From Actinoplanes ianthinogenes (lineage in GTDB: Bacteria; Actinomycetota; Actinomycetes; Mycobacteriales; Micromonosporaceae), in assembly GCF_018324205.1 (NCBI RefSeq), contig NZ_AP023356.1:5438001-5502000 (forward strand): a stretch of 64,000 nucleotides of DNA. The letters run 5' to 3'. The notes beneath the pieces were generated by a model. The model was not told where the DNA came from. It worked only from the letters and a program-made list of their open reading frames with translations, and did not search any database. Position numbers and translations under genes: made by a program. Positions 2 through 8,822 of this stretch are shown one piece after another (within the stretch, counting starts at the first letter, position 1; the number at the start of each line of letters is the position of its first letter).

Positions 2-7514
<7,513 letters not shown>

Positions 7515-7618: not shown

Positions 7619-8041
7619 CTACGACACGGTGACCGCAAGCGCCGAAATGGCGGTCCAGGTCTTGCTCGAGCCCGCCGGGCAGTTCCAGACGCCGGCGCTC
7701 GTGTGAGTGCAGGTCACCGGGCTTCCGGCACCCGTCGGCGCGCTAGTTCCAGTGGTGCCGGTGACCTTCACCTTGACGGTGCCGGACGTGAGCGCGGCGG
7801 TGGTGTCGTCCTTGAGCGTCAGCTTGATGGCGGCGTACTCGGTCGGCGCAGAGACGTCATTGACGATCTGGATGTTCTCCAGCGATGCGCCGACGACGCT
7901 GATGCTGGCCGTCTCGCCGCCCGCGACGATCTGGGAAGGAAGGTTGGTGACGCTGATGCCGTTCGCGGTGAAGGCGGTGCTGCCGGCAGCAACGGCACCG
8001 GCAACGGCGACACCACCCATGAGCTGAAGCATTGCGCGCAT
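7619..8041 (-). CDS. Small SipW-dependent-type secreted protein (TasA/camelysin-like)
   Basis: A 140-residue exported protein. Residues 1-28 form a signal of the SipW-dependent style (MLQLMGGVAVAGAVAAGSTAF). The mature part is Thr/Ser/Val-rich and predicted all-beta, with two cysteines (C111, C121) that could form a disulfide. ATG 8041 is preceded by AGGGGA at 8051-8056; the upstream in-frame extension is riboswitch and leader RNA. The next gene downstream encodes a SipW-type signal peptidase, the classic pairing of matrix protein and dedicated peptidase (tasA-sipW in Bacillus). It may be a fibre or matrix subunit, a pilus-like protein, or an unrelated secreted protein. I do not recognise a precise family. 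Confidence 0.75.
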   Translation of the reverse strand: MRAMLQLMGGVAVAGAVAAGSTAFTANGISVTNLPSQIVAGGETASISVVGASLENIQIVNDVSAPTEYAAIKLTLKDDTTAALTSGTVKVKVTGTTGTSAPTGAGSPVTCTHTSAGVWNCPAGSSKTWTAISALAVTVS

Positions 8042-8059
8042 ATGAATCGTTCCCCTGTT

Positions 8060-8143
8060 CGTTCGGTGGTAGCCCAGCCGACCTCGTGGGTCCTGTGGCT
8101 TTGCGTCCCCGGCTCGCGCCGGGTTTGCCCTTCTCGCCGAGCG
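8060..8143 (-). promoter_or_regulatory. c-di-GMP-I (GEMM) riboswitch
   Basis: Read on the minus strand, the element shows the conserved GEMM blocks in order: GGGCAAACC, then a stem CCCGGC closed by the GNRA tetraloop GCGA and GCCGGG, then GACGCAAAGCC, a second hairpin (GGACC, loop CACGA, GGTC) and the tail GGGCTACC. The outer P1 helix can form from CGCTCGG (8137-8143) and CCGAACG (8060-8066) with one mismatch. The base aligned to Vc2 position 20 appears to be G, favouring c-di-GMP over cAMP-GMP; this alignment was made by eye. It ends about 4 bases before the ribosome site of the secreted-protein gene, so translational control is plausible. Bases 8144-8393 upstream presumably hold the promoter; I see no gene there. 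Confidence 0.9.
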
Positions 8144-8393
8144 GACTTCGTTATCCCCTGGCAGCAGGTTGATTCGGCTGCGGCGGGGAGCGGGTAAGCA
8201 TTGGCAGCGACTTCGGCCACTCAGACTTTTTGGAAACTTCTGCCTTAGCGGGCCTCGGGTGCTAACGGGTGCTCGGCGGTTGCCAATGGGGGCGGGAAAT
8301 GCGACACCGCCGCCGAAGCGGGTGGGAAAGCGGCGTGGCAGCCGTTCGGAGACGGCTGCCACGGGACGTGCTCAGGGCGTACGAAAAATGGGG

Positions 8394-8822
8394 TCAGAGT
8401 TTGTAGAAGGTCACGTAGTGATCCGGGGTGAAGTACGCGACCTTGGTGCTGCGATTGACCACGATGCGGTACGCGTCGCGCGAGGCGCCCTTCGCGCGGG
8501 AGTACACGTCGTATTCGTTGTAGGTGGCCGACGGCAGGTAGCCCTCGCGGTTCTGGAAGGTGCCACCGGTGTAGTTGTAGTTGCCGTACGGCCAGGAGTA
8601 CCAGCCGGAGCTGAGCGGCCAGCCGAGCGACTGCCAGCCGGTGTACGCCGTGCGGGCGGCCGAGCAGCGGCTGATCGTGCACGACGAGTAGACGGCGGCC
8701 TGCGCGGCCGCGGTGTGCGTCGGGGCGACCACGGCGGGGGCGACGAGCGCGGTGCCGGCCAGGCCGACGATGAGGGCCAGGCTGAGGAGCAGTTTGCGGA
8801 CGCGGGGCAGGGGACGGCTCAT
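8394..8822 (-). CDS. Secreted guanyl-specific ribonuclease (RNase Sa/T1 family)
   Basis: A 142-residue precursor with a signal peptide of about 41 residues (basic start, hydrophobic core, AAAQA cleavage region). The mature domain matches microbial RNases: FQNREGYLP, catalytic E103 in YNEYDV, basic residues R115 and R119, and H135 in PDHYVTFY at the C-terminus. C48 and C53 may pair. It would cleave RNA after G outside the cell. No barstar-like inhibitor is visible nearby, which fits a protein active only after export. It is transcribed toward the SipW-type genes, with its stop 352 bases before that ATG. Confidence 0.88.
   Translation of the reverse strand: MSRPLPRVRKLLLSLALIVGLAGTALVAPAVVAPTHTAAAQAAVYSSCTISRCSAARTAYTGWQSLGWPLSSGWYSWPYGNYNYTGGTFQNREGYLPSATYNEYDVYSRAKGASRDAYRIVVNRSTKVAYFTPDHYVTFYKL

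Follow-up and report, generated by a model that had tools for sequence, protein, structure and literature searches.

In Actinoplanes, a SipW-type secretion operon is likely to be controlled at the level of translation by a c-di-GMP-I riboswitch. Riboswitch and operon lie on the minus strand of a 64,000-nucleotide stretch of Actinoplanes ianthinogenes DNA, here called the window. From the promoter to the last gene, the following features were distinguished.

8173 to 8198, minus strand: match to a flagellar-sigma-type promoter, CTTA-N16-GCCGAA, found by pattern search
8136 to 8162, minus strand: candidate hairpin GCCAGGGGAU..GUCCGCUCGGC, which would compete with helix P1 of the aptamer
8065 to 8139, minus strand: c-di-GMP-I (GEMM-I) aptamer, based on the RF01051 match (8139-8065), pocket bases and covariation
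8051 to 8056, minus strand: Shine-Dalgarno sequence AGGGGA, read from the sequence, 8 nt past the aptamer match
7619 to 8041, minus strand: open reading frame of a small secreted protein, 140 aa, whose N-terminus, MRAMLQLMGGVAVAGAVAAGSTAFTA, is signal-like and whose mature part, with two cysteines, has diverged
4353 to 7514, minus strand: SipW/ER-type signal peptidase of 1053 aa, fused to DUF5305 and extended by a long Ala/Glu/Pro-rich tail, from profile matches

Identification of the aptamer

When the whole window was searched with cmscan, the c-di-GMP-I (GEMM-I) aptamer RF01051 was the sole Rfam match at gathering level. It extends over the full model (1-87) with a score of 56.8 bits (cut-off 35, E 1.9e-8). 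The original prediction had placed a c-di-GMP-I riboswitch at 8060-8143, a range that covers the match, and had named the RF01051 covariance model as a check; the match is clearly significant. The conserved GEMM-I blocks which had been described are also present, P2 being closed by a GNRA tetraloop (GCGA) and P3 being intact. The pocket, as read from the sequence, is formed by G20 (8129), A47 and C92 (8069), for which numbering and roles are taken by us from the Vc2 structure. Since all three bases are canonical, c-di-GMP is the expected ligand.

Base pairing was evaluated in 23 orthologous leaders by five measures and 500 shuffled controls. In P2 and P3, 99.3% of the cells are paired versus 96.2% after shuffling, five pairs are altered on both sides (equalled in five of 500 shuffles), and the covariation score of 0.180 versus 0.115 was reached in none of the 500. 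One of the five measures, the number of further pair types, showed no excess in these leaders (9 versus 9.6). A second model, RF03167 (c-di-GMP-I-GGC), scores the aptamer at 57.0 bits. Assignment to this family was rejected: the score is below the cut-off of 59, and the window carries A47 where the consensus, from which 'GGC' was taken to mean G47, has G. G47 does occur in one orthologous leader (L054) and in the second riboswitch of the window's genome. The window riboswitch is thus a canonical representative of c-di-GMP-I, a known class. It resembles Vc2 in its fold, in G20/A47/C92, and in its site before the Shine-Dalgarno sequence of a gene for an exported protein, but differs from Vc2 and RF01051 by C.A mismatches in P1 and by its target, a SipW-type operon.

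The operon behind the aptamer

As had been proposed, the aptamer ends just before the ribosome site of a gene for a small secreted protein, the Shine-Dalgarno sequence being located at 8056-8051 and the ATG at 8041-8039, 23 nt past the aptamer end. Orthologous leaders carry a purine-rich Shine-Dalgarno sequence at a similar place. Conservation of the 23 orthologous proteins is concentrated in the N-terminal part, with a mean pairwise identity of 0.77 for residues 1-28 and 0.27 for residues 29-140, and two cysteines are present in 22 of them. Scans of 28 small proteins against NCBIfam and Pfam (E 0.1), comprising that of the window and those of 27 out of 31 named loci (all except L139, L157, L159, and L162), yielded no TasA, SipW-cognate or other good family match.

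The second protein matches the signal peptidase profile TIGR02228 with 46.4 and 48.2 bits (E 3.7e-12 and 1e-12), which is under the curated cut-off of 51.85; all 23 orthologs match it at E 1e-3 or better. DUF5305 is likewise present in all 23, above cut-off in the window, and Ser35 (GISMNP) and His73 (LHRI) in the numbering of alignment A1 are invariant. Among solved chains, only SEC11A/C match the peptidase at E 1e-3. The C-terminal tail (4353-6040, minus strand) is long, rich in Ala, Glu, Pro, and Lys, and contains repeats; across the orthologs, the peptidase frames have lengths between about 547 and 1201 aa. Upstream of the leader, on the same strand, a small, probably secreted ribonuclease is encoded at 8394-8822 (PF00545, 42.6 bits).

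In the SipW-TasA operon of Bacillus, a SipW-type signal peptidase is encoded beside a small exported substrate. The operon of the window likewise pairs such a peptidase with a likely small exported substrate, but the substrate has no TasA or SipW-cognate match, the peptidase is fused to DUF5305, and the operon is headed by a riboswitch. Because the genes adjoin, the peptidase probably processes the small secreted protein, and it would do so by cleaving the atypical signal of the latter. The proposal of a SipW-dependent protein was therefore sound with respect to the SipW-type pairing, which is kept in 23 out of 23 cases, but the protein itself lacks a SipW-cognate family match and owes the label to its operon.

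Conservation of the link between aptamer and operon

The order aptamer, secreted protein of 130-150 aa, and SipW/ER-type peptidase with DUF5305 was detected behind all 23 leaders of the window's type, the window included, which represent 23 of the 67 Actinoplanes genomes. In these 67 genomes, at least one RF01051 match at E 1e-3 is present in 60, above cut-off in 59. The matches total 82: 23 before the small protein and the SipW-type peptidase and 59 others. From the latter, 43 were read (44 rows, one locus appearing twice); all are placed ahead of a protein with a common start, and the three tested contain Calx-beta domains. The window's genome (9.9 Mb) harbors two RF01051 matches. The second c-di-GMP-I riboswitch, at G000:C1:2958162-2958240 (L002, L072), has G47 and precedes a Calx-beta protein of 1124 aa.

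Across the family (354 genomes, 44 genera), no RF01051 match was obtained outside the genus with strict filters, which lose weak matches. Samples of the class and the phylum contained RF01051 in 43 of 394 and 155 of 396 genomes, respectively. Five peptidase matches of more than 200 bits were obtained in the class sample, and four of them (the window, G790, G804, and G766; not G795) are preceded on the same strand by RF01051 at a distance of 495-536 nt, each time before a similar small protein. At 37.7 bits, the aptamer of G790 scores weakly, and only part of its pocket could be read.

Of the 31 named loci, 15 carry a gathering-level aptamer just ahead of the substrate: 13 from Actinoplanes or Paractinoplanes, which overlap the 23 leaders, one from Nakamurella endophytica, and one from an Acidimicrobiales MAG; the named loci and the genome set may overlap in general. 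The operon's named relatives in Actinoplanes, including Paractinoplanes, agree with the filamentous actinomycete that had been envisaged as host. Nakamurella endophytica (L160) shows the same order of aptamer, substrate and peptidase, as does the Acidimicrobiales MAG (L161), with extra DNA ahead of the peptidase. By eye, small protein and peptidase of this MAG are separated by about 1.6 kb (1918-3500 of L161), in which one reading frame resembles a transposase. In Arthrobacter mobilis, an aptamer is present but placed elsewhere. As the same order is found in distant actinobacteria, the link between riboswitch and SipW operon is evolutionarily conserved.

The switch can also be lost, as indicated by 11 of the 31 named loci, peptidase operons of Actinoplanes or Paractinoplanes without a gathering-level aptamer; four other named loci also lack one. 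In A. lutulentus (L136), leader hairpin and Shine-Dalgarno sequence (before position 3007) have no aptamer between them, as if it had been cleanly lost, and in five SipW operons of Paractinoplanes or Actinoplanes (L142, L143, L145, L146, and L158) the leader, inspected by eye and in single folds, looks like a decayed or remodelled aptamer. These related operons could suggest that the aptamer of the window is a relic as well, no longer regulating in this lineage, but a full-length match 22 bits over the cut-off, an intact pocket and compensatory pair changes make this highly improbable.

Promoter motif

FliA of A. missouriensis is associated with a CTCA-type -35 element. The pattern CTYA-N16-RCCGAA has one exact match in the window (8198-8173), 0.18 being expected by chance. 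With the wider pattern C[TC][CT]A-N15..18-[GA][CT]CGA[AT], matches were detected upstream of the aptamer in 17 of the 23 loci (shuffle mean 0.31, maximum 2); the remaining six orthologous leaders do not contain it. A similar pattern was seen in one of 44 rows of Calx-beta leaders. At seven flagellin-family loci, a set without shuffle control, CTCA-N17-GCCGA is present at three (L193-L195) and the strict form is missing at four, L197 having a looser match and L196, L198, and L199 none. In many orthologs, the promoter match is preceded by a second conserved block, TAGCACC.., located in the window at about 8241-8268 (minus strand).

According to excerpts of PMC8325347, the flagellar consensus is TAAA/GCCGATAA, and flagellar and pilus genes of Actinoplanes are driven by WhiG-like sigma factors. 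The original prediction had spoken of a matrix-like protein and of c-di-GMP as a common regulator of biofilm matrix and adhesion. A matrix role gains no support here: the small protein belongs to no recognised family, and the promoter motif points rather to a flagellar or zoospore programme.

Mode and direction of control

No terminator-like site was found in the leader of the window, and the Shine-Dalgarno sequence nearly touches the aptamer; control at the level of translation is the simplest reading of this arrangement and the most likely one. Judging from the promoter match, a flagellar-type sigma factor would initiate the transcript about 27 nt upstream of the aptamer. The G20/A47/C92 pocket would bind c-di-GMP supplied by some of the numerous GGDEF proteins, and P1 would thereby be stabilised, as in other members of the class. 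With the Shine-Dalgarno sequence following directly after P1, binding would alter how readily ribosomes reach the gene for the small secreted protein and probably also the peptidase-DUF5305 gene behind it.

A closing P1 helix had been predicted as well. In the window it is not clean: nine standard pairs and three C.A mismatches occupy a register of 12 positions, and the duplex energy is like that of shuffled DNA, none of the 23 leaders going beyond shuffles at the 5% level. The competing hairpin, GCCAGGGGAU..GUCCGCUCGGC, is near-invariant in all nine leaders of the window's subclade; it is more stable than shuffles in one of 23 leaders at 5%. The stabilities of P1 and its rival are ordinary for such GC-rich DNA.

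Access to the Shine-Dalgarno sequence was calculated from 27 nt ahead of the aptamer at three lengths, with aptamer and P1 enforced. In the window, it changed from 0.17 to 0.58, from 0.57 to 0.68, and from 0.35 to 0.26, respectively. Excerpts of PMC9262584 describe Vc2 as a translational OFF switch, and by analogy the P1 stabilised by c-di-GMP could hide the Shine-Dalgarno sequence here, too. Most of the 14 leaders that do not belong to the window's subclade behave in this way: access went down in 10, 9, and 8 of them and up in 3, 2, and 1 at the three lengths, and in 11 of the 14 the Shine-Dalgarno sequence is located within positions 1 to 12 of the P1 register. The nine leaders of the window's subclade, however, have about 6-7 nt extra ahead of the Shine-Dalgarno sequence, and access went up in 7, 5, and 5 and down in 1, 0, and 3. 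An OFF switch in the window therefore falls somewhat short of an even chance. As the shifts are opposite, polarity may differ between the subclades. These folding energies are weak evidence, and we lean only slightly towards an ON switch for the window.

Variation of the selectivity base

Position 20 of the pocket is variable in the leaders of the SipW operon, with 12 G, 6 A, and 5 C among 23. It is G in all 43 Calx-beta leaders (Fisher p 1.3e-6 versus the SipW leaders), and in 115 other actinobacterial aptamers 111 G, 4 A, and no C were counted. These 115 comprise 55 aptamers (59 loci less two unread and two SipW loci) and 60 for which only the first reading frame served to assess the context. 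C20 is also present in the Acidimicrobiales MAG, whose aptamer is placed before a SipW substrate. In total, C20 occurs in 6 of 28 aptamers in SipW context and in none of 158 elsewhere (p 7e-6, kinship ignored). The five Actinoplanes rows with C20 probably have one origin (86/76 support), and together with the MAG two independent origins would be seen.

A20 is the base of cGAMP-type (GEMM-Ib) riboswitches. Six of the 23 orthologs have it, and in the peptidase tree the G20 clade of the window is nested among A20 rows (bootstrap 80-85 at key forks), with four changes at position 20 versus a shuffled mean of 9.8. From this distribution it could be argued that the leader of the window senses 3',3'-cGAMP instead of c-di-GMP. 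Its own base is G20, however, and signs of a cGAMP source are few in the genomes examined. In G034, a genome with A20, Asp occupies the Hypr position in 53 of 55 GGDEF loci (56 rows) and Ser in none; the other two are unaligned at the diagnostic column, L207 having Asp otherwise and L224 being degenerate. Hypr-type GGDEF proteins as a cGAMP source for the A20 relatives were thus not found in the A20 genome examined. Among sampled GGDEF loci, Asp is present in 11 of 11 from the window's genome (G000, 92 matches) and in four of four from G047 (118 matches). SMODS synthases were detected in one of 12 genomes searched, which is an A20 genome. Sensing of cGAMP by the window leader is therefore very unlikely.

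Riboswitches for cAMP-GMP (GEMM-Ib) are known from Geobacter, as stated in excerpts of PMC8835794 and PMC6456294. They share the fold with the window aptamer and A20 with six orthologs of its leader, but the window has G20 and the A20 genome examined has no Hypr GGDEF. With G instead of A at position 20, the window aptamer was not assigned to this group.

The equivalent of G20 is presented in excerpts of PMC9262584 as a selectivity factor and not as a hard filter, so c-di-GMP may still be a ligand of the forms with A20 or C20. A more far-reaching reading, which we regard as rather doubtful, is that the riboswitches of the SipW operon are changing their ligand choice, base 20 going from G to A to C and back to G. 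C20 would then define a c-di-GMP-I variant not yet described, whose preference for cyclic dinucleotides is different or altered. It would have arisen at least twice (in Actinoplanes and in the Acidimicrobiales MAG), and C20 was seen exclusively ahead of SipW substrates.

Significance for Actinoplanes

In the open-licence literature, as far as covered by a limited search and in part by excerpts, no earlier account of the operon, its flagellar-type promoter motif or its drifting selectivity base was found. In the Actinoplanes papers checked in this limited search, the term 'riboswitch' is absent from the main text or confined to the reference list; PMC7395162, too, names riboswitches in its references alone. 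Excerpts indicate that no other members of the phylum have as many GGDEF proteins as Actinoplanes species (PMC10746217), and that the latter are without the c-di-GMP effector RsiG (PMC8325347). The riboswitches described here are concrete RNA effector candidates for c-di-GMP, and some genomes have two, one at the secretion operon and one at a Calx-beta protein. The switch of the secretion operon couples a flagellar-type promoter motif with c-di-GMP sensing. For its drifting selectivity base, the cell itself contains a natural control in the sister riboswitch.
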